DNA from: Roseinatronobacter monicus | Lineage (GTDB): Bacteria; Pseudomonadota; Alphaproteobacteria; Rhodobacterales; Rhodobacteraceae | DNA: 64,000 nt | Assembly: GCF_006716865.1 (NCBI RefSeq) | Contig: NZ_VFPT01000001.1 | Location: forward strand, 677,001 to 741,000 | Reading direction: 5' to 3' | In this document: positions 55,596 through 60,263 of the stretch, in pieces | Layout: each line of letters begins with the position of its first letter | Numbering within the stretch: the stretch's first letter is position 1 | The notes under the pieces: generated by a model | Seen by the model: only the letters and a program-made list of their open reading frames with translations | Told to the model about the DNA's origin: nothing | Database searches by the model: none | Translations under genes and position numbers: made by a program

Positions 55596-57041
55596 TCACT
55601 CTTCAATCCGCACACCGCGGTAATAGCGCGAGGGCGGCTCTGTCAGGTATGTGGCGTGATTAAACTCCAGCAAGGCCCCTGATACATCATCGTCAAATTC
55701 ATCCTTGCCAGACCAATGCATCAATTCCCATTTCAACGCGTCGACAAAGTCTGTTCCCTTCACTTTTGCAAGCTTCACAAGGGTTGCGCGCAGCCCATCC
55801 TCGCCAAATTCCTCTGAATTGCGGTTGATGCATTCGGTGACACCGTCGCTGTACAAAAGCAGCCGGTCACCCGGCATGAGCTGCGCCTCGATTGTTGCGA
55901 AGCGGGCATTCGGGATCAAACCTATGGGCAAACCCCCATCGCCGATAAACTCCACGCGCCCATCTGCCCGCTGGATTACCGGGTGCGGGTGCCCCGCCTG
56001 AACCAGCCGCATTTTGCCTGTTTGCAGGTCGATATCGGCATAGGCAATCGTCAGATAAGTTTCCGTCTCAAATTCATCGAGCATCAACTCATTGATCCGT
56101 GCAGCAACGTCATGCGGATCGTATGCCTTGGATTTTCCGGTTTTGGGGTCACGGATCAGGACGATATTCTGTTGGTGTTCGCCCCCCGAAAACAACCCCG
56201 CAATGCGTGCCCCTAGCATGGCCGCCGCCACACCATGGCCCGACACATCAATCGCATAAATCCCGATCCGGGCGGTGGAGATAATGAATGTGCCAACCAT
56301 ATCGCCGCCAACATGCCCCGAGGATTTCAACAACAGCGACAGCGTGCTGCCGTCAAAATCATGCTGGCGCTTGCGGATCAGCGAGTGCTGTAGCTTGCGC
56401 GCTTCCATCAGATCACGATCAATCGCGTCATACAGGTTTTGCAACTCATCCAAAGCGGCGCGCAAGTCCCGATTCTGTTGCAGCGCACGTGCTTCGGAGT
56501 TGCGGGCATTCTCGCGCGCCAAACTCAGTTCCGTGACATCGACCCGCAATCCGACCCTGCCGCCATCATCAGTCCTGCGCTCCACGATCTGCAAAACACG
56601 CCCATCGGACAGGCGCTGGCTGCTGCGCCCGGTATTGCGAAATCGCTCCAACCTGTGGCGCAACCAGTCTTCTTCGCGCCCGATGGCGTCGGGATAGCGC
56701 CCCTGCGCCAAGTTGTGGCGCAACAGGTCTTCGAACCGCGCGCCCTTCACCAGAATCGCCGGATCAATCTGATAAAGTTCCCCATATTTGCGGTTTGCCA
56801 GAACCAGCCGGTCGTCGGCATCGAAATAGACAAATCCGTCATCCAGCGCCTCCACCGCTGCCAGCAGTTGCCCCCGCGCGGTGCGCACCTCGCGCTCCAT
56901 CGCCAGCAAACGTTCGCCCGCTGTGATGCGGGCGCGCAACTCTAGCGGTGAAACAGGTTTTGACAGAAAATCATCTGCACCAACATCCAACCCTTCGGCG
57001 ACAGCATTTTTGTCATTTTTCGACGTCAGCAAGATGAAGTA
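55596..57041 (-). pseudogene. Receiver-PAS-SpoIIE phosphatase, main fragment after IS630 insertion (RbaY-like)
   Basis: Carries the end of the receiver (YFILLTSKNDKNAVAEGLDV with the switch Lys in DFLSKPVSP), a coiled linker, a PAS domain (about residues 95-215 of the frame from 57143: LLAAVEALDDGFVYFDADDR), another coil, and a PP2C/SpoIIE phosphatase domain (about 275-500: GGDMVGTFIISTARIGIYAI, DVSGHGVAAAML, YSDGVTE, DDDVSGALLEF). The acidic metal ligands of the phosphatase are intact. The first 86 codons lie at 58224-58483 across the insertion. Joining both at one TA gives about 567 residues with an unbroken frame. The architecture resembles RbaY of Rhodobacter capsulatus, a partner-switching phosphatase. 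Without the front half the receiver is broken. An open frame continues into the IS and could still be translated. Confidence 0.9.
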
Positions 57042-58223
57042 ATACCAATCAGCATTGATCAGAACTCTTGAGCCCAGTCGCGGGTTCCAATGGAGGTGAT
57101 TGTGTCGGGCATGCTGACCAATTTGTTCCAAGCCTTGCAGCAATGATCTACGATGTCTTCATAGGTTTCGAAGATGAGGTTTGATAGCCAGTTGTCTCGC
57201 ATGAATTGCCAGATGTTTTCGACTGGATTGAGTTCTGGGCATTTTGCGGGGATCGGGATGATGGTGATGTTGTCCGGAATGACCAGCTTGTCAGTCATGT
57301 GCCATGCGGCTTGATCCACGAGCACAGCCCCATGTGCTTTGGGTGCGACAGTTTGGGAGATTTCAGCAAGATGCAGGGCCATCGCTTCGGTATTGCACGC
57401 TGGCAGCACAAGACCTGCAGCTTTCCCGAGGGCTGGGCAAATCGCTCCAAAGATGTAGCTTGAACTCGTGCGCTGATCATGTGGGGCGGAAGGTCGCGTA
57501 CCGCGCTTCGCCCATCGGCGCGTGATCTTGTTTTTCTGGCCGACACGCGCTTCATCTTGGAACCAGACTTCGATCACAGTGCCTTGCAGGAGCCGTGCGC
57601 GGAGCTTTGCTACTGCGGCTGCAAACCCTTTTTTTTAAAGTCCTCCAGTGCGGCTGTATCTTGCGCGTGATGGCGCGGGCGTGCTGTGAGTTTGACATAA
57701 CCAAGCGCCCTGAGTTCCCGGCTTATCGACGTCTCGTGAAGTGAAATCCCAAATGTGTCTGCAATCCATTTCCTCAGATCACTCAGGCGCCAGCGGACGA
57801 CCCCATGGACCGATAAGGTCGGACCGCTCTCAACAATTGCAGCAAGCGCCCTGCGCTGCTCATCGTTAAGCTTAGACTGCTGACCAGGAGCTTTGCCGTT
57901 GATCAAGCCGTCAGGCCCGCGGGCATTAAACCGCTCCACCCAGTCACGGACAATTTGTAGGCCAACACCACCAATCCGAGCAGCATCGCTGCGCCGACCG
58001 CCATCATAGATCTCCGCCAGCGCCAAAAGCCTGCGGGCTTGGTTGGCATCCTTTGTCTTTCGCGCAAGTTCTCTCAACTTCATGCCGTCGTAGTCTGTCC
58101 GTAACGCGAGCGCTGCGCCCATAGAGAGGCCCTCCCCAGAAAATCTGACGCCATTGAGTCAGATCTTCATAGATTTGGGAATCCCAAAACCCTCAGAAGA
58201 GTCAGATTTCGCGAGACTTGGTA
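57042..58223 (-). mobile_element. IS630-family insertion sequence A, 1182 bp, inside receiver-phosphatase gene
   Basis: Bounded by TA dinucleotides at 57040-57041 and 58224-58225, the target duplication typical of IS630/Tc1-mariner elements. Terminal inverted repeats start ATACCAATC (left) and TACCAAGTC (right) with partial similarity continuing inward for about 28 bases (CTCTT near the inner end). Removing the element and one TA restores the codon series Tyr-Ser-Tyr-Phe-Ile in the receiver domain, which proves both ends. Encodes a transposase in two frames. Confidence 0.93.
57059..58122 (-). CDS. IS630-family transposase A, two frames joined by -1 frameshift
   Basis: First frame 57610-58122 (170 residues): HTH-type DNA binding, RSDAARIGGVGLQIVRDWVE, then the linker DFKKKGLQPQ. 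Second frame 57059-57577: DDE core with Asp in FQDEARVGQ, Asp in AVLVDQAAWH and Glu in CPELNPVENIW. The two overlap through the sequence A-AAA-AAG at 57634-57628, the classic slippery heptamer for -1 ribosomal frameshifting. Slipping there gives FKKKGFAAAVAKLRARLLQ, which continues smoothly into VIEVWFQDEARVG, the expected family order. So the enzyme, about 355 residues, is probably produced by programmed frameshift and not broken. Confidence 0.88.
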
Positions 58224-58483
58224 TAACTATACTTTTCTTCCGACAGCGCGCGAAAGCTGCGGCAGAATTCCAGCCCATCCATTTCCGGCATCATCCAATC
58301 CGACAGGATCAGGTCGAAATGGCGTTTGGTGCAGGCCTCCAGAGCGTCAATCCCAGAGCGGGCCTCTTGCGTTTGATATCCCCAGTGTTGTAACAGCTTG
58401 GCGAAAATCATACGCTGCGCGCGACTGTCATCGACGATAAGTGCAGTTTTCTGCGCATTCGGCCTTGGCGCTGGTTGTTTCAT
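58224..58483 (-). pseudogene. Receiver-PAS-SpoIIE phosphatase, N-terminal receiver fragment
   Basis: 86 codons from ATG 58483: MKQPAPRPNAQKTALIVDDS opens a response-regulator receiver, continuing SRAQRMIFAKLLQHWGYQTQ and the phospho-acceptor Asp in LILSDWMMPEMDGLEFC. The frame ends within six codons of entering the insertion sequence. It lacks the Lys and Thr switch residues, which are at the other side (57041 downward). Starts divergently from the Hpt gene at 59925 before the second IS was inserted. A GTG at 58495 is an alternative start. Confidence 0.9.
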
Positions 58484-58573
58484 GGTGTTTTGCACGCGTT
58501 TTTACCCGGAGTACCTGTCTTGCCTTTTTCACTGATCCCGTTGCTTTTCGCAGGGCTTTGTTAAACAGTGGTA

Positions 58574-59874
58574 AAGGTGACAGCTTTCGGTGCGTTTTTT
58601 TCTATCTGCCTTTCCATCAAGCGAATTGAACAAAGTATTAGGAATTCGGTTCTAGTCCTGCGATTCACTCGATTTGCGGATAAAGCCGGATAAGCTTTGT
58701 GCGCGCGTCTTGAGTTGTGAACTGCCAGTTGGTTTTGGCGCGTTGGGAGTTGCGATTTGTTGTCCATGCATCGACTTCGGCCTTCAGCATAGTTTTGTCC
58801 GGGATGCGCCGGGCCAGACATTGGCGAGCGAGGACGCTGAGTTCACATTCAGCGATGTTGAGCCAAGACCCATGTTTTGGCGTGTAGTGCCATTCGAACC
58901 GTTGTGCGATGCGGCGCGCTTGGGCAGGCGGGAAAGCCTCGTACAGCGATGCAGGGTTGTGGGTGTTCAGATTATCCTGCACGAGATCGATCTTTTCGGC
59001 ATAGGGAAAGTGGAGATCAGCCAGATCGCGCAGGATATGGGCATAATCGATGGCAGTGCGTCGATCGCGTATCTCGACGTGGCGCCAGCCCTCCAGAGGA
59101 GCGAATAACATGAACAGGCTGGCGACACCTGCGCGTTCATATTCGTAGTCATGGCGCGCCTCGCGCCCTGGCTGCATGGGAATGGGTGTGCGGGTCTCAC
59201 GGGTCAATTGTTTGCTGGTCTCGTCCAGACAAACCAGCGGACGGTTTTGATCGTGTGGACGGGTGTAGACGTCCAGCACATTCTCCATGGCCGCCACGAA
59301 ACCAGCGTTGGCTTTGGGTGGGATTACCCAGTACCGGTTCCGGTGCGGTTTGAGCGCGTTTTTTTAAGCGTGCGTTGGATTGTGGTATCACTGGCCTGCT
59401 CAACAATGCCCAGTTCGACAACCCGCTTTTCCAACAACCTGAGTGTCCAGTGCGTATATCCTTCGGGTGGTTCGGAACAGGCAAGCGCGATCAGCTTGGC
59501 CTCGGCTTGCCCATCGAAGATCCGAGGTTGTGAAAGCGACGCTGGAACTTTGCGCGCTAAAGTCGCCTCAAGCCCTTCCTCCACAAGTTGGCGCCGGGTG
59601 TGGAAAACAGTCGAGAGACTGGTCTCTAATGCCTCGGCAATGCGCGCATCTTCCCATCCCGGGCCATCAGAGGACACATCCGCCTTCAGCAAAATCCGCG
59701 CCTTCAGCAGTCTGTAGGCGGCTTGCCGACCCGTTCTGATCATCCCTTCAAGGTGTTCACGCTCCTCTGTCGTCAGTCGAACTACATACTTCGGCTTGCA
59801 CCCTCTTGTCATCATCTCACCCCCAGAAAGCTGCTACGCTCCACAGAGATTCAGAAAAAATCAAAGCTGTCAAA
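58574..59874 (-). mobile_element. IS630-family insertion sequence B, about 1.3 kb
   Basis: A different IS630-family element from A. TA dinucleotides at 58572-58573 and 59875-59876 fit a target duplication. Inward sequences share GACAGCTTT close to both ends, followed by T-rich DNA; the exact ends may be off by a few bases since two bases differ in distance to the repeat. It sits in the gap between the receiver-phosphatase gene and the divergent Hpt gene, separating their promoters. Confidence 0.75.
58665..59815 (-). CDS. IS630-family transposase B, two frames around an A7 run
   Basis: N-terminal frame 59324-59815 (163 residues): HTH region VVRLTTEEREHLEGMIRTGR and WEDARIAEALETSLSTVFHT. C-terminal frame (open from 59297 down to 58665, 210 residues): DDE core with Asp in PLVCLDETSKQL, Asp in DLVQDNLNTHN and Glu in WLNIAECELS. 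The upstream frame ends RTLKKTRSNRTGTG; one base back at the seven-A run (59365-59359) gives KNALKPHRNRYWVIPPKANA and then FVAAMENVLDVY, the normal IS630 order. Both programmed frameshift and a disabling mutation are possible; the site is a less perfect slippery heptamer than that of element A. Confidence 0.85.
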
Positions 59875-59924
59875 TACCCCGAAGCGAGGCACTAGGCTTG
59901 GGCGTGTGATGGAAAGGAACGTGC

Positions 59925-60263
59925 ATGATCGACTGGTCGCAAGTGGCTGACCTATATGCTGATTTCGGCGAGGACGGGTTCGGCGAAGTGGTGCAGGTCT
60001 TCGTGCAGGAGGTGGAGACCGGTCTGGCGCAGTTGAATGCCGCGCAATCCCCAGATGAAAACCGCATCGCGTTCCATTTCCTGAAGGGGGCGGCCCTGAA
60101 CCTTGGCTTCAGCGAGGTTGCCGATCTGTGCGCGGCAGGCGAGTTGCGCGCATCCGAGGGCAAAGATGCCGCGCGCGAGAAAGAACAGGTGTTGCGCGTG
60201 TTTCCACCAACCTGCACCCTGTTTGAACAGCAATGGCGGCAGCGACTTGCCCCGAAGCACTAG
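59925..60263 (+). CDS. Hpt (histidine phosphotransfer) domain protein
   Basis: 112 residues forming a single helical Hpt domain. The phospho-accepting His51 lies in NRIAFHFLKGAALNLGF (the H-x2-K-G pattern), and helix packing residues match the family. Such stand-alone Hpt proteins shuttle phosphate from a hybrid kinase to a receiver. The nearest receivers are the split phosphatase gene, which was divergent from this gene before element B inserted, so it could have been that protein's phosphate donor. Start ATG 59925 is preceded by GGAAAGGA about ten bases upstream. Function is inferred from the motif and position. Confidence 0.88.
   Translation: MIDWSQVADLYADFGEDGFGEVVQVFVQEVETGLAQLNAAQSPDENRIAFHFLKGAALNLGFSEVADLCAAGELRASEGKDAAREKEQVLRVFPPTCTLFEQQWRQRLAPKH

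Follow-up and report, generated by a model that had tools for sequence, protein, structure and literature searches.

Insertion of a multicopy IS630-type element within a receiver-PAS-SpoIIE phosphatase gene of Roseinatronobacter monicus

The interrupted phosphatase gene and its reconstruction

The window (i.e., the whole 64,000-nucleotide stretch of DNA analysed) corresponds to positions C1:677001-741000 of the 4.73-Mb genome of Roseinatronobacter monicus, which is assembled in six contigs. Close protein relatives mostly bear the name Roseinatronobacter, a genus placed in Rhodobacterales, Paracoccaceae. In this window, a minus-strand gene coding for a receiver-PAS-SpoIIE protein is broken at 57040-58226 by an IS630-type insertion element, hereafter element A. 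A second IS630-type element, hereafter element B, lies between the phosphatase gene and the divergent hpt gene. The features of the locus are as follows:

55596..57039, minus strand: 3' fragment of the phosphatase gene, with the remaining part of the receiver, the PAS domain and the SpoIIE domain (Pfam)
55596..56900, minus strand: 434-aa PAS-SpoIIE ORF from an internal ATG (database entry P0006), a possible receiver-less product
57040..57042: left target repeat, TAA (TNA)
57043..58223, minus strand: element A, IS630-type, 1181 bp, ends TACC...GGTA, 41 copies in the genome
57059..57577, minus strand: transposase ORF 2 of element A, DDE_3 part, 172 aa (NF033545, over the cut-off)
57610..58122, minus strand: transposase ORF 1 of element A, HTH part, 170 aa
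58224..58226: right target repeat, TAA
58202..58495, minus strand: 5' fragment of the phosphatase gene, a 97-aa ORF with the first two thirds of the receiver (Pfam); native part 58227-58495, ATG start at 58483, ORF end inside element A
58652..59895, minus strand: element B, with CTAG on both sides, in the hpt-phosphatase intergenic region
59925..60263, plus strand: divergent neighbour gene with an Hpt domain (Pfam), starting 29 bp after element B

The receiver is represented on both sides of element A: positions 2-68 of the Pfam profile PF00072 are found in the ORF to its right, and positions 73-110 in the ORF to its left (25.8 bits, below the cut-off of 30.2), where they are followed by PAS_7 and SpoIIE. 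When 1184 bp (element A plus one repeat) are removed, an open frame of 571 codons and a stop results from GTG 58495, and the same frame comprises 567 codons from ATG 58483. The junction codons then read AAG TAT AGT TAC TTC ATC, which places the insertion point in the codons for Ser86-Tyr87, and the sequence obtained is identical whether the repeat is read as TA or as TAA. Actually, an intact public protein of 567 aa (P0001; 18 member sequences, 2 contigs) differs from the joined protein by only 8/567 substitutions; in it, PF00072, PAS_7 and PF07228 are all above the cut-off, in the receiver-then-SpoIIE/PP2C order of the RbaY group.

An orthologue was present in all 23 other genomes of the genus that were searched. 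Fifteen residues around the junction align without gaps in every one of these orthologues (Y, then S, C or T, then YFILLT); the PAS domain is present in 16 of them (one with an internal TGA) and absent in seven (loci L079-L101). The hpt gene adjoins the phosphatase gene in 23/23 (22 short loci and one longer stretch), ilvA lies beyond this pair in 22/23, and argG is found in all three of the longer stretches that extend to its position. In genome G005 (L227:5971-7340), a different insertion with transposase-like ORFs is located between hpt and the phosphatase gene.

The initial annotation of this DNA had claimed that the element splits the receiver of a receiver-PAS-SpoIIE gene, and this is borne out by the two Pfam receiver pieces, the joined frame and the gap-free orthologues; the unbroken Tyr-Ser-Tyr-Phe-Ile at the junction (TAT AGT TAC TTC ATC) and the reconstructed length of about 567 residues, which is both the codon count from ATG 58483 and the length of P0001, were likewise correct. 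That the joined architecture is an artefact is ruled out by P0001 and the orthologues, which stand at the same locus in the relatives. Furthermore, a profile search of the genome for a second SpoIIE gene, intact or not, returned a single match, namely the split gene. Both findings that, according to the initial annotation, would have spoken against its claim were looked for, and neither was made. The presence of the insertion within the phosphatase gene is hence confirmed, beyond chance, as a well-supported gene disruption of an ordinary kind, in a regulator. Nevertheless, the joined frame proves insertion, not reversion: the suggestion that the strain may revert by precise excision of element A is not supported, and Ku was not found in the genome by a search that was positive in one of 14 control genomes.

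Element A and its target repeat

The two transposase ORFs of element A show the HTH-DDE organization of the IS630 type (Pfam DDE_3 and HTH_32/33). ORF 2 matches the curated IS630 model NF033545 with 134.4 bits (cut-off, 100), while ORF 1, which matches the first half of the model, stays below the cut-off (85.6 bits) because it is only half of the protein. Near its end, ORF 1 has eight consecutive A on the coding strand (57629-57636), a likely site of frameshifting. Apart from these matches, (i) ORF 1 has a weak IS481 match (26.1 bits, cut-off 224); (ii) neither ORF matches an ISAzo13 model (NCBIfam, E 0.001); and (iii) a search of solved structures with the transposase gave five matches, Sleeping Beauty among them, none with an E value better than 0.19. 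The DNA of element A had no match in a plasmid collection; protein relatives of ORF 2 occur in 258 plasmid records, where the annotated ones are called "IS630 family transposase" or are nameless, and no element name appears among the matches listed.

There are 41 left and 41 right ends of element A in the genome, corresponding to 40 full-length copies and one opened copy. Thirty-nine of the 40 full-length copies are identical and the other one has a single change; a search of 36 further genomes of the genus, with up to 11 candidates scored in each, gave no match to element A. This is read as a recent burst of multiplication, and gene conversion among the copies could also keep them alike. The opened copy contains about 2.8 kb of other DNA (L030, G000:C1:1345800-1350600). 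Elsewhere (L050, G000:C2:152100-155200), two copies follow each other head to tail, and a single base separates their ATACC and GGTAT ends.

The target repeat had initially been taken as TA, with an element at 57040..58225. The flanks of the 41 copies correct this to TAA, an instance of TNA, and to an element at 57043-58223. All copies share the ends ATACC...GGTAT, and the same base N flanks both sides in 38 of them (A 19, T 14, G 3, C 2), with a probability of 6e-20 for at least 38 of 41 matches at 25% chance. Among the matched copies, T precedes N in 37/38 and A follows it in 38/38; the most frequent context of TNA is CTNAG (16/38: CTAAG 7, CTTAG 5, CTCAG 2, CTGAG 2). The three copies whose flanking bases do not match are those at L028, L038 and L041. 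The pattern extends to other genomes, mostly of Alphaproteobacteria: at 57 loci with both ends and both flanks, N matches at 45, T precedes in 56 and A follows in 57. These loci are what is left of 80 transposase relatives after subtracting 21 in which ATACC or GGTAT was missing from its expected position and two that end at the element; since ends were sought by the ATACC/GGTAT pattern, the result applies to elements with such ends. The cases of non-matching N (12/57 elsewhere, 3/41 here) suggest recombination or rearrangement between copies.

The simplest reading of these letters is a 1181-bp TACC...GGTA element that would have duplicated TNA (TAA in the phosphatase gene); a 1-bp repeat of N with a 1183-bp element is possible and gives the same letters. 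It is very improbable that the repeat is instead the usual TA of IS630 and that TNA merely reflects a target preference. Such a repeat is what the family leads one to expect: IS630-family elements are described as duplicating TA in the consulted parts of two papers, one Thermus IS630 element is tabulated with a 2-bp repeat, and element B, in the same genome, sits in CTAG in all its 20 copies, which fits TA. But a TA outside ATACC requires a left flank that ends in TA, which holds at 22/57 loci elsewhere and at no more than 19/38 matched copies here, and a TA inside ATACC, with GGTAT as repeat, would leave five extra bases in the gene after removal, and no orthologue has them. In addition, the same N on both sides of 38/41 copies is not expected under TA, which was rejected as the repeat of element A on these flanks and on the gap-free orthologues. 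The reading frames at other insertion sites weigh little in this matter: a strict test returned no site, and a looser one returned 6/37 sites, the phosphatase gene included, with a net offset of 3 bp in four of the six (flanks of 210 and 270 bases) or three of the six (flanks of 150 bases), too few to weigh in either case. Due to the TNA pattern, then, with the 2-bp TA duplication of the family not found at this element, element A is called here IS630-type rather than a canonical IS630 member.

In wider terms, it seems likely that a widespread and mainly alphaproteobacterial IS630-type lineage with ATACC...GGTAT ends has moved from a 2-bp TA to a 3-bp TNA stagger, so that the TA rule would not be universal, and that in this strain an element of this lineage has just multiplied to 41 copies and interrupted the sole phosphatase gene of the Rba type.

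Partner switching and the gene-transfer-agent cluster

The insertion separates residues that are invariant in 12 aligned relatives: D18, D19 and D62 are encoded before it, and T92 and K114 after it. We take D18/D19 to be the receiver acidic pair and D62 the phospho-acceptor, with T92 and K114 as the conserved Thr and Lys. As D18/D19/D62 and T92/K114 are on different fragments, neither fragment can be expected to be a working receiver.

Homologues of rbaV and rbaW, to be looked for elsewhere in the genome according to the initial annotation, are indeed present and open: a STAS gene (rbaV, L207:5316-5672) and a HATPase_c_2 gene (rbaW, L207:4771-5319) overlap by 4 nt, so the partner pair expected for the RbaY group exists in this strain. 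The reading that we favour, with a probability of about 0.75, is that a recently multiplied element A inserted into the only SpoIIE-type, RbaY-kind phosphatase gene of the strain, duplicating TAA, with a presumed loss of RbaV-dependent functions. The proposed course is this: element A entered the Ser86-Tyr87 codons; the phosphatase would then have lost its activity or, failing that, its connection to the receiver; by analogy with R. capsulatus, RbaV would stay phosphorylated by RbaW; and the RbaV-dependent outputs, which in that species are gene-transfer-agent (GTA) expression and stationary-phase survival, would be low. It is also by analogy that the split phosphatase is linked to RbaV. In R. 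capsulatus, mutation of rbaY lowered both GTA expression and stationary-phase viability, according to the parts of the report consulted (PMC3999984). The present strain would be expected to resemble that mutant, provided that the 434-aa PAS-SpoIIE ORF does not work alone. Element B, beside hpt, probably also disturbs the Hpt gene.

This last proviso amounts to a different outcome, in which the insertion frees the phosphatase: transcription from element A would run into the 3' fragment and yield a receiver-less, 434-aa enzyme, either constitutive or PAS-controlled. A receiver-less phosphatase could still be made, since the 434-aa ORF is open downstream of the transposase ORFs, which are on the same strand as the phosphatase gene; the ORF from ATG 56900 is complete, its PAS_7 and SpoIIE matches are above the cut-offs, and this form stands in the database as P0006. 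Nevertheless, by eye there is no clear ribosome-binding site in the 25 bases before ATG 56900, and we know of no receiver-less form in the family of receiver-SpoIIE phosphatases that is active. We hence consider this outcome unlikely.

As for the GTA itself, NCBIfam models for portal, capsid, protease, tape measure, distal tail and megatron proteins place a cluster at about C1:3.0129-3.0269 Mb, its genes being numbered g1 to g15 by order, an assignment that we assume. The initial annotation reasoned that the split phosphatase might deprive the strain of GTA control. This is too simple, because the cluster has lesions of its own: element B is inserted 85 bp ahead of the g1 start (G000:C1:3027014-3028260; L205:15015-16261), and the g15 (megatron) gene is in three pieces (L205:926-4887). 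In 27 of the other 36 genomes of the genus, a single frame of g15 matches nearly the whole model (in one genome it contains an internal TAG); in the rest it is partial, often at contig ends, or absent. Compared with G010, two single-base losses, near homopolymers of 2 and 4, break the frame of g15, while other gaps balance; the frame is unbroken in the remaining GTA genes for which G010 served as comparison. With element B upstream of the cluster and g15 frame-broken, GTA output is probably impaired by more than the loss of the phosphatase gene.

The hit in the phosphatase gene might be part of a wider decay of the GTA pathway, in which GTA output was lost and lesions in structural genes and regulators were then tolerated. 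Consistent with this idea are the split Rba phosphatase, the element B upstream of g1 (in R. capsulatus, the -129 to -100 stretch was needed for expression, according to the consulted part of the source), and a g15 in three pieces whose single-base losses lie near homopolymers of only 2 and 4, compared with the single frame of most other genomes. But elements A and B together have more than 60 copies, so that some hits are to be expected whatever the pathway, and the GTA pathway was singled out post hoc; moreover, rbaV and rbaW are open, the other GTA genes compared remain in one frame, and the breaks in g15 are possibly a sequencing error. Such decay is therefore a tentative proposal, somewhat doubtful at present, and it complements rather than excludes the favoured reading of an insertion with loss of RbaV-dependent output.

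Element B has 20 near-identical copies in the genome, all of them in CTAG. The copy beside hpt lies in TTAGG-N9-CTAG, and CTAG occurs at that place in only 2/23 relatives (L082 and L090); the copy at the GTA cluster lies in the CTAG of TTCAG-N9-CTAGTCT. Upstream of g1, 15 relatives were compared, one of which does not hold the region; among the 14 usable ones, TTCAG and CTANNCT with the same spacing are found in six, CTANNCT alone in three, and neither together in five. Within the 110 kb examined (the window and three stretches), the pattern TT[AC][AG]G-N9-CTAG is confined to this pair of B sites, and the hpt and GTA copies are the only ones of the 20 that carry it on the left. This shared promoter pattern is a lead, not a result, as it was chosen after both sites had been seen. 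Within positions 1-64000 of the window CTAG is rare: 26 occurrences, including those at element B, versus about 230 expected from base composition.

In any case, the one SpoIIE phosphatase gene found in this genome was disrupted naturally and recently and, together with the lesions in the GTA cluster, this makes the strain a possible case of how a gene-transfer-agent system is lost.

Comparison with known systems

The closest described counterpart of the split gene is rbaY (rcc00181) of R. capsulatus: both proteins combine a receiver with a PP2C/SpoIIE phosphatase and, in both genomes, rbaV and rbaW form an overlapping pair elsewhere (PMC3999984). They differ in that the gene studied here has a PAS domain between receiver and phosphatase and is split, whereas RbaY is described as a 1230-bp ORF with a receiver plus PP2C, with no PAS mentioned in the consulted parts of that report. 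The likeness to RbaY is thus one of described domains and gene pairing.

Regarding the element, ISY100 and IS630 are given as TA-specific members of the IS630 family in the consulted part of the corresponding article (PMC2170065). Element A resembles them in its IS630-family transposase (by curated model), its length of about 1.2 kb and its short terminal inverted repeats, but its repeat is read as a 3-bp TNA instead of TA and its transposase is encoded in two frames. No report of a TNA repeat in IS630 was found in the consulted open-licence literature; one may exist elsewhere, for instance in ISfinder. Groups with 3-bp repeats are the ISAzo13 family and Zator, according to the consulted part of another article (PMC10045372); element A shares with them the length of the repeat, but its ORFs match the IS630 model rather than ISAzo13. 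Finally, element B is like element A in its match to the IS630 model, two ORFs, size of about 1.24 kb and recent copies, and differs in being always in CTAG and in having a transposase that is not alignable with that of element A by BLASTP. How many bases are duplicated at the target is regarded as characteristic of a family and as an expression of transposase complex geometry. If the move to a TNA stagger is true, 2-bp and 3-bp staggers could be compared within one family and even, with elements A and B, in one cell.
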